A stretch of 47,897 nt of DNA from Thomasclavelia saccharogumia DSM 17460 (lineage in GTDB: Bacteria; Bacillota_I; Bacilli_A; Erysipelotrichales; Coprobacillaceae), in contig NZ_JMLH01000019.1 in assembly GCF_000686665.1 (NCBI RefSeq), forward strand, positions 1-47,897, in the 5' to 3' direction. A model generated the notes under the pieces. The model did no database searches and was not told the DNA's origin. It saw only the letters and a list, made by a program, of their open reading frames with translations. How positions within the stretch are numbered: the stretch's first letter is position 1; each line of letters begins with the position of its first letter. Positions 18,436-28,242 of the stretch are shown in pieces. The position numbers were made by a program, and so were the translations under genes.

Positions 18436-18475
18436 ACCGCTCAATCACCGCTCAATCACCGCTCGATCCTCGATC
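18436..18475 (+). repeat. Three and a half tandem 11-bp repeats
   Basis: ACCGCTCAATC occurs at 18436-18446 and 18447-18457, ACCGCTCGATC at 18458-18468, then a partial CTCGATC. The contiguous 11-bp period equals one helical turn, as in replication iterons or regulator arrays. Confidence 0.75.
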
Positions 18476-18509
18476 CATGCTCCACACTGCACACTGCACT
18501 GTCTACTGC

Positions 18510-18540
18510 ACCATGTACTACACCGTGTACTACAACCGTG
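18510..18540 (+). repeat. Tandem 12-bp repeats
   Basis: ACCATGTACTAC (18510-18521), ACCGTGTACTAC (18522-18533), then AACCGTG. Just upstream is a short CACTGCA repeat (18484-18498). It is C-rich compared with the surrounding AT-rich DNA. Confidence 0.65.
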
Positions 18541-18642
18541 TTTTGTAAAAAAATGTATTTAATTAATACAAAATGATTATAGCAAGATTAATAGACTATT
18601 TCAATGATTTCAGTACTGAAAATACGGTCTGAAATAAAAAAA

Positions 18643-18665
18643 ACATTAAAGCAGAGCTTTAATGT
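18643..18665 (+). promoter_or_regulatory. Hairpin before the cysteine-ladder gene
   Basis: ACATTAAAGC pairs perfectly with GCTTTAATGT around AGA, about 8 bases upstream of the AGGAGG ribosome binding site. It could be a translation-control hairpin, or a terminator-like barrier shielding the gene from upstream transcription. Confidence 0.45.
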
Positions 18666-18688
18666 CTATTTAGGAGGACGAAGAATAG

Positions 18689-20092
18689 ATGATTACCAAT
18701 AACACTTATGTATCTTACGCTACATGCGGTTCCAGAGATGATATCAATATCTGGCTTAATACCGGTCATGACATCTTCAGCAACCGTTCGGACTATAAGA
18801 CAGTGATAGCGCATCAATGTGATTATAAGGACAGGCATTCTTATACTTATGGCAGAAAGAAGAACAAAAAGGTTTACTCTAATATTTATGCCCATCTGAT
18901 GGAGGTTATGATTCCAGTTACTATGACTGATGCACTTAAGCATGATTTTATCAAAAAATTCATGTGTGCAGTAAATCCGCTTTACAAGCTTAACAGTTTC
19001 CTGTACTGCTACAAATTTATTTCAAAAGGTAAAGGTAGCTATATTAGTGTACTGTGTTTTACCAGAAAGTATTTCAAAAGACAACGGTTAATGACTGTTA
19101 CCTATGAAAAGGATTATATTTACAGCAGTAAGACAAAAAGGCTGTGTAAGAAAGATGATCCGGATGCAGTACTTGTTCATAAGAAAGGTGATATGAAAAA
19201 AGATGCCAACGGCTCTCCTGTAAAAGAAACTTTCTTTGTTTCCCAAACAGAGCAAGAAATATTTAAATATACTTCTTTTACCCGATTTCATAAACGTCTT
19301 TTAAAAAATGCCGAGTATGCAGCTATGCTGTTAGACCGGGATTTCTGGAATAAAAAAATAAAGTATTTTTCACGGATAACAATAAAAAAATCAGGTTTTA
19401 AAAATAAAGAAAAGATTCATATAAAAAATCAGCTGATAATCAGGCTAAATTCCCGTATTAATTCTATGCAGACTGCATTACAGGAAGGCAGGTACTGGAA
19501 CACCTCGGATATTGATAAAGCCTTTCATAAGATGATTCATCGTATTAACAGTCTGTTATATCTAACCAGATGGACCGACCCGGTGAGTGGCAGTTCGATC
19601 TATCTCGGAACAAAACAGTCTGTTACATGTTTAAAAGACAATATTTCTTTAATAGAGGAGTATATAGAGTCACTCCTAACGCAGTGGTGGGCTGATGAAG
19701 TATATAGTGATGATGATTTTACAGCTGATCAATATACGGAGCATGAAGCTGATTCGGTTAAATCTTTAGTTGAAACTGATAAATACTGGAAAGATTTCAA
19801 CAACAATAAGTGGAGTAAGAACCGCTATAGTTATGAGGAGGCTCTTGAGTATTCAAGAACTCTTATAAACTGCAGGAACTGCATCAATTGCCTTGACTGC
19901 CGAAACTGTAAAAACTGCACTGACTGCATAGACTGCAGCTGCTGCACTGGATGCTGTAACTGTTTTGAATGTGTTTTCTGTATCAGGGCAACTGATCAGC
20001 ATCATTATATGGAGAAACCTTCAAATACTGGATACTGGGACAACAACTTAATAAATACATATCTAAATCTGAAAGAAAAAGGGGTGGCTTAA
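18689..20092 (+). CDS. 467-residue protein with a period-three cysteine ladder
   Basis: Not recognised. The ATG follows TTTAGGAGGACG. Residues 1-150 look globular, with IYAHLMEVMIPVTMTDALKHDFIKKFMCAV followed by FLYCYKFISKGKGSYISVLCFTRKYF, a strand-helix-strand order that vaguely recalls relaxase or Rep folds but without the HxH metal motif. Residues 180-340 are basic and helical. Residues 395-431 carry 15 cysteines, 13 of them at exact three-residue spacing in an x-[N/D]-C pattern, suggesting a metal-binding or disulfide-laddered spiral. It ends directly before the next ATG. As the largest island protein it could be a replication or mobilisation initiator; this is inference only. Confidence 0.75.
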   Translation: MITNNTYVSYATCGSRDDINIWLNTGHDIFSNRSDYKTVIAHQCDYKDRHSYTYGRKKNKKVYSNIYAHLMEVMIPVTMTDALKHDFIKKFMCAVNPLYKLNSFLYCYKFISKGKGSYISVLCFTRKYFKRQRLMTVTYEKDYIYSSKTKRLCKKDDPDAVLVHKKGDMKKDANGSPVKETFFVSQTEQEIFKYTSFTRFHKRLLKNAEYAAMLLDRDFWNKKIKYFSRITIKKSGFKNKEKIHIKNQLIIRLNSRINSMQTALQEGRYWNTSDIDKAFHKMIHRINSLLYLTRWTDPVSGSSIYLGTKQSVTCLKDNISLIEEYIESLLTQWWADEVYSDDDFTADQYTEHEADSVKSLVETDKYWKDFNNNKWSKNRYSYEEALEYSRTLINCRNCINCLDCRNCKNCTDCIDCSCCTGCCNCFECVFCIRATDQHHYMEKPSNTGYWDNNLINTYLNLKEKGVA

Positions 20093-20566
20093 ATGAAAAA
20101 ACTGCAATGCTATGTTGCATCAAGTTTTGATGAACTGAACAAAAAATGCGGATATGGAGTAATTATGGTAGAAGAATACAAACCAATTGATATTATAAGC
20201 GGTTTTACAGAAGAATCATGGCAAATAAAGAGCTATCAGGTTGGAGGATATCTGATAGGGGTTTTGAAAGGGATTAAATATGCAATAGCTAATAATTATG
20301 ATGATGTTACGATTTTTTACAATTTTGAGGGAGCAGACAAGTATACAAAAATAAGAAACAGTGAAGGATTATCAGATGTAGTAAAAACATATCTCTCAGG
20401 TTTCAAGGATTTAGAACAGAAAATTGATATAAAATTTGAAAAGGTTAATATGAACCTGTTTCTTCCAAGAACAAATTTACAGCGTGCATATAAAGTATCC
20501 AGAAAAGCAACGCGCGAAGAATATGATGAATTTCATATTCTAAACAAGAAGAATTTCAAGGCTTAA
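20093..20566 (+). CDS. RNase H-fold protein lacking catalytic residues
   Basis: A 157-residue protein whose first 90 residues follow bacterial RNase HI-like proteins: a strand CYVASSFD, then CGYGVIMVEE, the helix region QVGGYLIGVLKGIKYAIANNYDDVTIFYNFEG. In active relatives these positions read YxDGS, GEIxGxxxA and YYDYEG. Here the first Asp is Ala (YVAS), the Glu of GE is Gly (VGGY) and the third Asp is Asn (FYNF). The fold seems preserved while the metal-binding carboxylates are gone, pointing to RNA:DNA or protein binding rather than cleavage. It starts at the base after the stop of the cysteine-ladder gene, so the two are strictly coupled. Confidence 0.65.
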   Translation: MKKLQCYVASSFDELNKKCGYGVIMVEEYKPIDIISGFTEESWQIKSYQVGGYLIGVLKGIKYAIANNYDDVTIFYNFEGADKYTKIRNSEGLSDVVKTYLSGFKDLEQKIDIKFEKVNMNLFLPRTNLQRAYKVSRKATREEYDEFHILNKKNFKA

Positions 20567-20751: not shown

Positions 20752-21444
20752 ATGCTGAATAATGACAAATCTGATAACTGCAGAAGAAAAGTAAATATAA
20801 AATTATCTATTGAAAATGTTAAAGCTGTTTTGAACAGAGTAAGTGAGTTGATGCTCGATCATGCCTATTCAGTCGAAGCAAATATTTCATCATTTTCTGC
20901 CTCTGTAATAAGAATGTCCAATGGCAGTTTAGAAAGCGGTGACTATAAGTTTATTAAAAGTGTATGCAAGTCAAATAGTAACGAAAATTATATATGCAGA
21001 ACGCTTGAAGCTGTAAATATGCTGAAAAATGAAAAACAAAAAAATGTAATTATTCTTCACTATTTCTATAACGCTACATTTAATGAAATACGTTATGGTT
21101 ATTATGATTCAGTACACGATGTTGAGTTTGAACCTATCTGGCAGGTATATAAACTTCGTGATAATGCGCTGGCAGAGCTTATTTATCTGTTTGATGATGT
21201 ACTGGTCTATGAAGATGAAAATATAAGGAACAAGAACACAAAAACTGTAAAAGAAAGTAAAAGTAAAGAGCGAATCCCAGTTAACTATATAGCTAAGAAT
21301 GGAATGCACGGGACTATACATTTAAAAGATTACGAAGATTTTTTAAACTGGTCAAAGCGTATGAAGATATTCAAAGATGTTGAATTAACTGAAGAAACTA
21401 TTAAGAATGTCAAAGCGGTGTTTGGGGTGAAAGGGGTAGCGTAG
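20752..21444 (+). CDS. Sigma/ArpU-like regulatory protein
   Basis: A 230-residue protein. Residues about 20-140 resemble phage ArpU or sigma region 4-like regulators: a helical start, then LEAVNMLKNEKQKNVIILHYFYNATFNEIRYGYYDSVHDVEFEPIWQVYKLRDNALAELIYLFD, where repeated helices end in a recognition-like segment. The C-terminal part (GMHGTIHLKDYEDFLNWSKRMKIF) is separate and unknown. The ATG at 20752 lies 9 bases after GAGAGGAG. It may activate the par and downstream genes. Moderate confidence in the fold only. Confidence 0.5.
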   Translation: MLNNDKSDNCRRKVNIKLSIENVKAVLNRVSELMLDHAYSVEANISSFSASVIRMSNGSLESGDYKFIKSVCKSNSNENYICRTLEAVNMLKNEKQKNVIILHYFYNATFNEIRYGYYDSVHDVEFEPIWQVYKLRDNALAELIYLFDDVLVYEDENIRNKNTKTVKESKSKERIPVNYIAKNGMHGTIHLKDYEDFLNWSKRMKIFKDVELTEETIKNVKAVFGVKGVA

Positions 21445-21577
21445 ATGTTTGATGTCAAATACTTGAATTTTATTTTGTAAAATGAGTTGATTCTTATTAG
21501 TTTATGAATGTTTTTGCTGTTGAGATTAATACGAAAAAGTGAAATTTAATAAAAGAAAAAACAAGGAGAATAGAGAG

Positions 21578-22465
21578 ATGAAAGTTATAAGTATTATCAA
21601 TGAAAAGGGCGGAGTTGGAAAAACCACCGCATCAGTAAATATCAGTTACGGGTTAGTAGAAAGATTAATGAATGACGGAAAAAGAATTTTGTTAATCGAT
21701 GCAGATGCACAGGGCAATGCAACTAAATTTTTTCTGCCGGAGTTTAAATCAATTACATTAGAAGAATTTAATATGCTGGAGGTACCGGAAAACTGTGACA
21801 TTAGAAGTTCAACTAAGTTTATAAAAAATTCACTAATCAGTATGCTTGGCGAAAGAAATGATTTAAATAAACTTCTGCTTGAGGGGAAAGATGTTATTAG
21901 AGAGTGTATTCATCAAACACAGTATCAGCAGTTAGATATTATTCCATCAATCGGTACTGAACTTATTGCTACAGATAAGCTGCTTGGTGCATCAACAGGT
22001 CAACGACATGTGATTTTAAAAAGGGCTTTGAGAGAAATTAGAAATGATTATGATATCGTGATCATTGATCATGCACCAACATTTAATAATATTACTGTAA
22101 ATGGTCTATTTTGTTCGAATGAAATTATAATCCCACTTAAACCAGGTGGATTTGAATTAAAGGGGCTGATTGATACACTTGAGGAATTGTTTGATATTGA
22201 AGATGATTATGAATGTGAATATAAAATAAGAATATTGATGAATATGATTCCTCGTGGTATAAGACCGGCTTACATCAATTTTATTAATAAGATTAGAGAA
22301 TTCTATGGCGATACTATTTTAAAGACAACAGTAGGCTATCAGGATGCAGTTGCATCAAGATCAACTATGAGCGGTAAATTACTGTATAACAGTAAAACTG
22401 GTGTTGGTGAGGATTATCGTAATCTTGTAGATGAATTAATTAAAGAGTTTGATAATGAAATTTAA
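21578..22465 (+). CDS. parA: ParA-type partition ATPase
   Basis: A 295-residue ParA/Soj-like ATPase. The deviant Walker A KGGVGKTT has signature Lys10 and Lys15; Walker A' is LLIDADAQGNAT and Walker B DIVIIDHAPTF. It lacks an N-terminal HTH, so it is the short type Ib/chromosomal-like form. It would polymerise or pattern on DNA and be stimulated by the ParB encoded next. The ATG at 21578 follows AAGGAG; the upstream extension to 21539 lacks a ribosome binding site. Its stop codon touches the first 24-bp palindrome. Confidence 0.92.
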   Translation: MKVISIINEKGGVGKTTASVNISYGLVERLMNDGKRILLIDADAQGNATKFFLPEFKSITLEEFNMLEVPENCDIRSSTKFIKNSLISMLGERNDLNKLLLEGKDVIRECIHQTQYQQLDIIPSIGTELIATDKLLGASTGQRHVILKRALREIRNDYDIVIIDHAPTFNNITVNGLFCSNEIIIPLKPGGFELKGLIDTLEELFDIEDDYECEYKIRILMNMIPRGIRPAYINFINKIREFYGDTILKTTVGYQDAVASRSTMSGKLLYNSKTGVGEDYRNLVDELIKEFDNEI

Positions 22466-22488: not shown

Positions 22489-22506
22489 ATGAGGAGGAGT
22501 AAAGGT

Positions 22507-23352
22507 ATGGCACTTACAAATTTAATCAATGCAGATAAAGTTAACAAGATGAATAAGAAACCCGTTGGACTAAAAACTATTGATATTGATGATATAGAAG
22601 TGAATCAACATAATCAGTTTGATATTAATGGAATTGACGAGCTTAAATCGTCAATTCTGGAATATGGATTAAGGAAACCACTGGATGTTTATAAAATAGG
22701 TGACAGATACAGGATAAGTGATGGTGAACGTAGGTATACAGCACTTAAGGGATTAGCTGACGAGGGAAAGATAGAACCGGAAGTATACTGTATCGTTTAT
22801 GAAGCACCGGAAAGTGAATTAAATGACCGTTTGCGTTTGATATTAGGAAATGGGACAAGAATAATGTCGGAACTAGATAAAATAAAAATTGTTGCTGAGC
22901 TGTTAGATATATATCAGCAATTGGATCCTAAACCTAAAGGTAATAAAAGAGACTGGATTGCACCTTTTATTGGTGCAAAGTCAGGTAAAACGGTACAAAA
23001 ATATATAAATGCAATTGAAAAGAAAGAAGAATCTGTTGATATAGGAACGCATGATGAAGCCAAAAAAGATAGCTGTAAAAATAAAGAGTATGGATTAAGT
23101 GAACTCTTTTCAGATTACAAAAAGCTGTTAAAGCAGATTGATAAGATTAATAAAAAAGTTGAGAATACATCTATATCTCATAAAAAGATTGCAGAGTCTG
23201 ATGATAGGGATATTACTGTCGAAGATTCTCTAATAAATATTCATAATGTGATTAGTAAATTTAGCAGATGTATTCAAATATCAATTGAGATAGATGAACA
23301 AAATAAAGATGAAAATGTTTTAGATGGGCAGATGAGTATGGATGAAATATAA
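22507..23352 (+). CDS. parB: ParB-type centromere-binding protein
   Basis: A 281-residue ParB/Spo0J/Noc-like protein. ParB N-terminal motifs: IDIDDIEVNQHNQFDINGIDELKSSILEYGLRKPLDVYKIGDRYRISDGERRYTALKGL, where the GERR segment corresponds to the CTPase box. The central HTH lies around residues 115-190 (ELDKIKIVAELLDIYQ...GAKSGKTVQKYINAIEKKE), followed by a coiled-coil-like C-terminus. The ATG at 22507 is chosen over 22489 because GAGGAGGAG at 22491-22499 precedes it. It is flanked on both sides by palindromes with an identical core. Confidence 0.88.
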   Translation: MALTNLINADKVNKMNKKPVGLKTIDIDDIEVNQHNQFDINGIDELKSSILEYGLRKPLDVYKIGDRYRISDGERRYTALKGLADEGKIEPEVYCIVYEAPESELNDRLRLILGNGTRIMSELDKIKIVAELLDIYQQLDPKPKGNKRDWIAPFIGAKSGKTVQKYINAIEKKEESVDIGTHDEAKKDSCKNKEYGLSELFSDYKKLLKQIDKINKKVENTSISHKKIAESDDRDITVEDSLINIHNVISKFSRCIQISIEIDEQNKDENVLDGQMSMDEI

Positions 23353-27005: not shown

Positions 27006-28242
27006 ATGACAAAAATTAAAAGAGACCCACAAACTGTAGCTTTAGCTGAAGCTATTTTAAAACAATATAAACCAGAGTAGAAGACATGTCTAATGCTTTG
27101 AAGGATCTTTTTGGACCAATGTTAGAGAGTATGCTTAAAGGTGAAATTAATCATCATCTTGGTTATGATTCTAATGATAAAAATTTTAAAGAAACTGATA
27201 ATCGACGTAACGGTTATGGTAAAAAGAAAGTAAAATCTTCACAAGGTGAACTGGAAATTCAGGTTCCCAGAGATAGAAACGGTTCATTTGATCCAGTGAT
27301 CGTCCCTAAACGACAAAGAGATATATCTTCTATCGAAGATAAAGTTATTGCGATGTATGCGGGGGAATGTCACAAAGAGATATTTCAGCTACTATTGAAG
27401 ATATTTATGGATTTAGTGTATCACATGAAATGATTTCTGATATTACTGATGCAGTTTTAGATGATCTAAATGAGTGGCGAAATAGACCGCTTAAAAAGTG
27501 TTATGCGTTTACTTTTGTTGATTGTATGTATGTAACACTTAGAAATGATTATGAGGTAAAGGATTGTGCTGTATATGTTATCTTAGGCTATGATTTAAAC
27601 GGTAATAAAGAAATACTCGGTATTTGGTTAAATGAGACAGAATCTAAGAATTATTGGATGCAAATTTTTGATGAAATTAAAGCACGTGGTGTAGAAGATA
27701 TATTCTTCATATCTATGGATGGTGTATCGGGATTAGAATCAGGTGCGAAAGCAATATTTGCCAATGTAGTAGTCCAAAGGTGTATTGTTCATTTGATTCG
27801 CAATTCACTAAAATATGTACCATCAAAGGATTATAAGCGATTTACGCAAAGTATAAAAAAAGTATACGGGGCTGCTAGTTTAAAAGCTGCAAATACAGCT
27901 TTTGAAGCTTTTAAAAAAGAATGGAGCCATTATCCAGGTGCAGTAGATGTCTGGGCAAGAAACAAGGAGCATATCGATCAATTATTTGATATCGGAAGTG
28001 ATGTAAGAAAGATCATGTATACGACTAATGCAGTTGAATCGATAAATGCAACATTTAGAAAAGTCACAAAAAAAGGAGCATTTCCTAATGAAAATGCATT
28101 ATTTAAATTAATATATTTAAGAGTGAGGGAATTAGAGAAAAAATGGGAAGGAGGAAGAGTTAGAAACTGGTCAATGGTATTAAACCAATTAATGACAGAT
28201 GATAGATTTAGAGACAGGATAAATAAATATATAAAATTATAG
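27006..28242 (+). pseudogene. IS256-family transposase with two frameshifts
   Basis: A mutator-type DDE transposase. Reading begins at ATG 27006 (MTKIKRDPQTVALAEAILKQYKPE), hits TAG at 27078 through a one-base loss, resumes at VEDMSNALKDLFGPMLESMLKGEINHHLGY, and shifts again near 27362, where MYA-G-MSQRDISATIEDIYGFSVS continues in a third frame. Catalytic residues remain: D in FVDCMYV, D in SMDGVSGLESG and E in TTNAVESINATFRK. Intact relatives are about 400 residues in one frame, so this copy is inactive. Confidence 0.85.

Follow-up and report, generated by a model that had tools for sequence, protein, structure and literature searches.

Genes and features at the locus

The DNA analysed here (the window) is a stretch of 47,897 nucleotides from Thomasclavelia saccharogumia DSM 17460, contig NZ_JMLH01000019.1. 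It contains an ORF for a protein that we call pseudo-RNase HI, which lies in a Thomasclavelia plasmid-like module whose gene order is Rep-like/cysteine-ladder protein, pseudo-RNase HI, a 230-amino acid protein, ParA and ParB. The features are:

18436..18541, no strand assigned: iteron-like direct repeats, three 11-bp ACCGCTCAATC units followed by a 12-bp array
18689..20092, plus strand: Rep-like protein with a C-terminal cysteine-ladder domain, 467 amino acids, the Rep-like part being residues 1-340 (gene order)
20076..20087, plus strand: Shine-Dalgarno-like sequence AAAAGGGGTGG, just 5' of the pseudo-RNase HI start (sequence)
20093..20566, plus strand: pseudo-RNase HI ORF, 157 codons, 157 amino acids (ORF list, homology, alignment, AlphaFold2 model, fold match)
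20752..21444, plus strand: 230-amino acid protein of the same module (ORF list)
21539..22465, plus strand: ParA-type partition ATPase (Pfam AAA_31, 8.7e-41)
22489..23352, plus strand: ParB-type partition protein (Pfam ParB_N, 1.5e-6)

The ATG of pseudo-RNase HI is placed directly after the TAA stop of the Rep-like ORF, as a sequence-only reading of this DNA had it when it described the protein as translated immediately after the cysteine-ladder protein. Codon-position G+C of the pseudo-RNase HI ORF is gene-like (0.41/0.27/0.26) and resembles the values for ParA and ParB nearby.

We infer the Rep-like identity of the upstream ORF from the gene order around its relatives; no family model matches its residues 1-340. 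Relatives of this region adjoin ParA and/or ParB in nearly all of the loci fetched from the order. The relative in Thomasclavelia cocleata DSM 1551 is 72% identical, and a ParB-like gene lies approximately 100 bp 3' of it. Seven Rep relatives, once aligned, proved too divergent to scan the collection with; an alignment of four sequences worked. The cysteine ladder, in which cysteine recurs about every third residue (window 19850-19990), matches phrog_15341, a family of unknown function, at residues 364-436 of the Rep-like protein with an E-value of 1.4e-17. None of the six aligned Rep relatives has it, and stand-alone ladder proteins are present in another genome of the order. By eye, and unscored, the 230-amino acid protein resembles proteins of 241-266 amino acids that are encoded upstream of Rep in related elements, with an IPSFSTS-like motif.

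The repeats upstream of the Rep-like gene are candidate iterons and may mark a replication origin. They are unusually G+C-rich, with tandem 11- and 12-bp units, and similar repeats were not seen upstream of the other Rep relatives. Upstream of the Rep-like gene, the minus strand has a good match to the promoter consensus (TTGAAA-17-TATAAT with TG, window 18576-18604), which reads across the repeats and could yield an antisense RNA; the surrounding region is no richer in promoter-like sites than its shuffles. Just 5' of the Rep-like start is a hairpin of 12 or more pairs (window 18637-18671) that is terminator-like for the minus strand. Further downstream, two overlapping ORFs with an apparent frameshift resemble, by eye, an IS256-like transposase (window 27086-28242). 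The tRNA-Leu 3' end has no att-like repeat elsewhere in the window, small contigs carrying Rep relatives show no terminal overlap that would mark them as circular, and pseudo-RNase HI, the Rep-like protein and the 230-amino acid protein match no defence family.

Is the pairing of a Rep/cysteine-ladder protein with an RNase H-like protein conserved? We searched 26 stretches around relatives of the Rep-like protein or the cysteine ladder, some of them duplicates of one place, and no RNase H-like ORF was found in any. One check put forward in the sequence-only reading was whether every homologue beside a comparable cysteine-rich protein is inactive; in the loci searched, no other Rep-like or cysteine-ladder relative has an RNase H-like neighbour. 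With this neighbour missing from those loci and the ladder from the aligned Rep relatives, the two seem to have been added locally to this element and not to form a conserved pair.

A divergent homologue of viroplasmin-type RNase HI

A whole-genome search of the family matched pseudo-RNase HI to viroplasmin-type RNase HI in 40 genomes out of 43, that of T. saccharogumia included, at 21-33% identity, with E-values down to 1e-12 per genome and coverage of about 115 residues in most. With phmmer, the E-value against RNase HI is 5e-14. The framework motifs described in the sequence-only reading align as stated, with YVASSF in the place of YVDGSF, GYGV shared, and FYNFEG in the place of YYDYEG. The 157-amino acid ORF is homologous to viroplasmin-type RNase HI and divergent from it. 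In profile searches, Pfam and NCBIfam, the RNase_H model included, gave no match at E ≤ 1, the ORF is not among the matches when its own genome is searched with PF00075, and PHROGs gave a weak match to phage RNase H (E 9e-4). These results would suit an RNase H resemblance that is due to chance, or an ORF that is not a gene at all, but the RNase HI matches are reproducible in 40 genomes, at the same residues, and the fold prediction agrees with RNase HI. The 40-genome matches and the structural match contradict a chance resemblance, which we regard as extremely improbable.

A Pfam search detected no N-terminal Cauli_VI domain in pseudo-RNase HI, whereas the RNase HI encoded elsewhere in the same genome has one. 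That protein (G000:C11) is a separate, intact, chromosomal RNase HI. Searches of 316 genomes from the order, of 392 from the phylum, and of genome contigs, viral contigs and phages revealed no close homologue of pseudo-RNase HI, and a plasmid search returned no close homologue, only proteins annotated as RNase H family at 24-30% identity. In a tree its branch is very long and saturated, and a placement among the relatives was not obtained.

An AlphaFold2 model of pseudo-RNase HI has a pLDDT of 86.4 and a pTM of 0.83, with strands and helices in the order of RNase HI, although residues 144-157 are mostly of low confidence; the input alignment consisted of 25 viral RNases HI, that is, active RNases. 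The mixed beta sheet flanked by helices that defines the RNase H fold is present in the predicted model, as built from that RNase HI alignment. Structure prediction followed by superposition on RNase HI was the check proposed in the sequence-only reading, and its outcome supports an RNase H fold: with Foldseek and VIA-align 2, RNases HI ranked top, the best solved structure being 3h08 (Z 17.7, 2.2 Å over 131 residues by VIA-align 2), and human and E. coli RNase HI score Z 15-17. A model from the single sequence is poor (pLDDT 41), and the fold assignment therefore rests on homology. That homology is solid.

Replacement of the catalytic residues

To compare active sites we aligned pseudo-RNase HI twice, once to 20 RNases HI encoded in related genomes and on a plasmid, and once to 25 viral RNases HI. 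Both agree that all five catalytic positions are replaced: D9A, E53Y, D77N, H121N and D133Y. Ala9 occupies the invariant Asp column of DGS, Tyr53 the Glu column of AGEI (which has become GGYL), Asn77 the Asp column of YDYEG, Asn121 the His column of AHSG, and Tyr133 the last Asp column, in an EADKLA-like motif. The catalytic set is kept in the 20 cellular and plasmid relatives, in the 25 viral relatives and in the further relatives checked, a count that excludes matches in other lineages that are interrupted by TGA codons and were read only in pieces. The sequence-only reading had the Asp, Glu and Asp positions as Ala, Gly and Asn. The Ala and the Asn were correctly placed, but the Gly is the residue preceding the Glu column, which is Tyr53, and H121N and D133Y have to be added to the list.

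In 90% or more of the intact relatives 51 positions are conserved, and pseudo-RNase HI keeps 22 of these; polar residues are kept at 3 of 15 such positions and non-polar residues at 19 of 36 (Fisher p 0.06). Further replacements are N49Q, T97V, W84Y and W90S, in columns that are canonical hybrid-contact positions of RNase HI, position 49 being that of the RNA-contact Asn and position 97 that of the phosphate-pocket Thr. With the catalytic residues gone, pseudo-RNase HI presumably lacks nuclease activity. It combines common descent with RNase HI and loss of all of the catalytic residues, as would a pseudoenzyme derived from that enzyme.

Retained protein or decaying gene

What might explain an RNase HI without any of its catalytic residues? 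One answer is that the element acquired an RNase HI copy that no longer has a function and whose frame happens still to be unbroken. It is a lone copy on a very long branch, the catalytic residues of its relatives are intact, and the chromosome already supplies an RNase HI. However, the frame of 157 codons is intact at about 31% identity or less to RNase HI, a translation signal is present, and the hydrophobic pattern of the core is kept: pseudo-RNase HI has hydrophobic residues at 39 of the 51 positions where its relatives are hydrophobic, compared with 17 of the 69 where they are polar (p 2e-8). When neutral drift of the RNase HI from the same genome was simulated to 40% identity, a mean of 7.7 stops accumulated and none of 400 runs gave a stop-free frame, although the simulation overstates the neutral time because part of the divergence may predate loss of the active site. 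The sequence-only reading would have been overturned by close homologues that retain the DEDD residues beside a lone, decayed copy. The relatives do keep the catalytic residues and the copy is indeed alone, but simple decay is disfavoured by the intact frame and the conserved hydrophobic core, and we consider a decaying gene unlikely. Because an intact frame, a Shine-Dalgarno-like sequence with a start directly after the upstream stop, and a kept core occur together, pseudo-RNase HI is probably a retained protein and not fresh debris.

Possible roles of a presumably nuclease-dead RNase HI

RNase HI keeps R-loop-primed initiation in check and clears away RNA primers. As the sequence-only reading had suggested, a dead RNase H could bind RNA:DNA hybrids or R-loops, perhaps at the origin of the element; by binding without cutting it might stabilise a primer or block replication. 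The gene is directly 3' of the Rep-like gene, with iteron-like repeats upstream, the RNase HI fold is predicted, and active-site mutants of RNase HI can bind hybrid; structures of human D210N with hybrid are among the structural matches. The protein is also basic (net charge +3.6, pI 8.9), but an intact relative (L014) is equally basic (pI 8.9), so the charge is not distinctive. The proposal is weakened further by the four contact-position replacements, N49Q, T97V, W84Y and W90S, and by the missing Cauli_VI domain, which is a hybrid-binding domain. Hybrid binding by pseudo-RNase HI is possible, the residues giving it no support, and we rate it as improbable.

RNase HI as a protein partner has a precedent, since E. 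coli RNase HI serves the RnlA-RnlB system, in association with the toxin RnlA, and recruitment of the antitoxin RnlB requires it (PMC5308261). Links between RNase HI and RnlA also occur among the sequences that we searched. A viral contig encodes an RNase HI with Cauli_VI fused to an RnlA-type toxin that has RnlA_toxin_N, RnlA_toxin and RnlA DBD domains (L085:1902-3710, plus strand), a genome of the same family encodes a similar fusion (L125:3720-5207, plus strand), and a Lactococcus plasmid has an RNase HI gene directly 5' of an RnlA-RnlB toxin-antitoxin pair (L032:4806-7213). The fusions are in keeping with RnlA's known need for RNase HI. Genomes of the family also encode two divergent RNase HI paralogues with intact catalytic residues (L121:3287-3982 and L122:2694-4166), one of them with a long, unusual N-terminal extension.

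Pseudo-RNase HI could be viewed as a mimic of the host RNase HI, a decoy that captures some factor, of the host or of a rival, able to dock on that enzyme, such as an RnlA-type toxin. The essential part that RNase HI plays in the E. coli system (PMC5308261) would make such a decoy meaningful, as would the RNase HI-RnlA fusions and neighbours in the family, in a virus and on plasmids. Yet the T. saccharogumia genome has no RnlA-type toxin in a search that detected two positive controls, and no toxin or antitoxin gene adjoins pseudo-RNase HI. A decoy role is very unlikely.

The explanation that we favour, tentatively and at a little short of an even chance, is that pseudo-RNase HI is a retained, catalytically dead RNase HI that acts as a non-enzymatic binding protein, probably contacting the Rep-like/cysteine-ladder protein or the replication complex. 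Its ancestor would have been a viroplasmin-type RNase HI of the kind common in this bacterial family, and the gene would now be housed in the replication and partition module of a plasmid-like element. The core RNase HI fold would have been kept while the two catalytic metals would no longer be coordinated. The protein would presumably be made together with the Rep-like/cysteine-ladder protein, and that protein, or the replication complex, is perhaps its binding partner. The adaptor role that the sequence-only reading also raised would be compatible with the data. A more specific version, in which pseudo-RNase HI, as a stand-alone protein, has become an obligate subunit of a plasmid-type initiator with a cysteine-ladder domain and regulates its replication without nuclease activity, is doubtful.

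Encoded right behind a Rep-like gene, a nuclease-dead RNase HI would illustrate in a simple way how an enzyme fold can become an adaptor or a regulator of replication. The wider significance is limited at present because this is a single copy with a putative partner.

Comparison with known systems

With the viroplasmin-type (Cauli_VI plus RNase_H) RNases HI of the Coprobacillaceae and gut phages (phrog_531; PDB 2kq2/2kw4), pseudo-RNase HI shares the common core fold, the framework motifs and up to about 31-33% identity. Unlike them, it has no Cauli_VI domain, its five catalytic residues and several substrate contacts have been replaced, and it is found in a plasmid-like module. The RnlA-RnlB system (PMC5308261) likewise uses the RNase HI scaffold as a protein partner, but the E. 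coli protein is enzymatically active, and the T. saccharogumia genome is without RnlA. Among RNase H-like domains, the connection domain of retroviral reverse transcriptase and the RNase H-like domain of Prp8 are examples whose active site is lost or incomplete (PMC3985635). Like pseudo-RNase HI, these domains keep the RNase H fold with a lost or incomplete active site, and have a structural or binding use. They are, however, parts of large proteins, whereas pseudo-RNase HI is stand-alone, bacterial and of clear RNase HI ancestry. Inactive RNase H folds are therefore known; what is new is a stand-alone bacterial pseudo-RNase HI beside a Rep-like gene.
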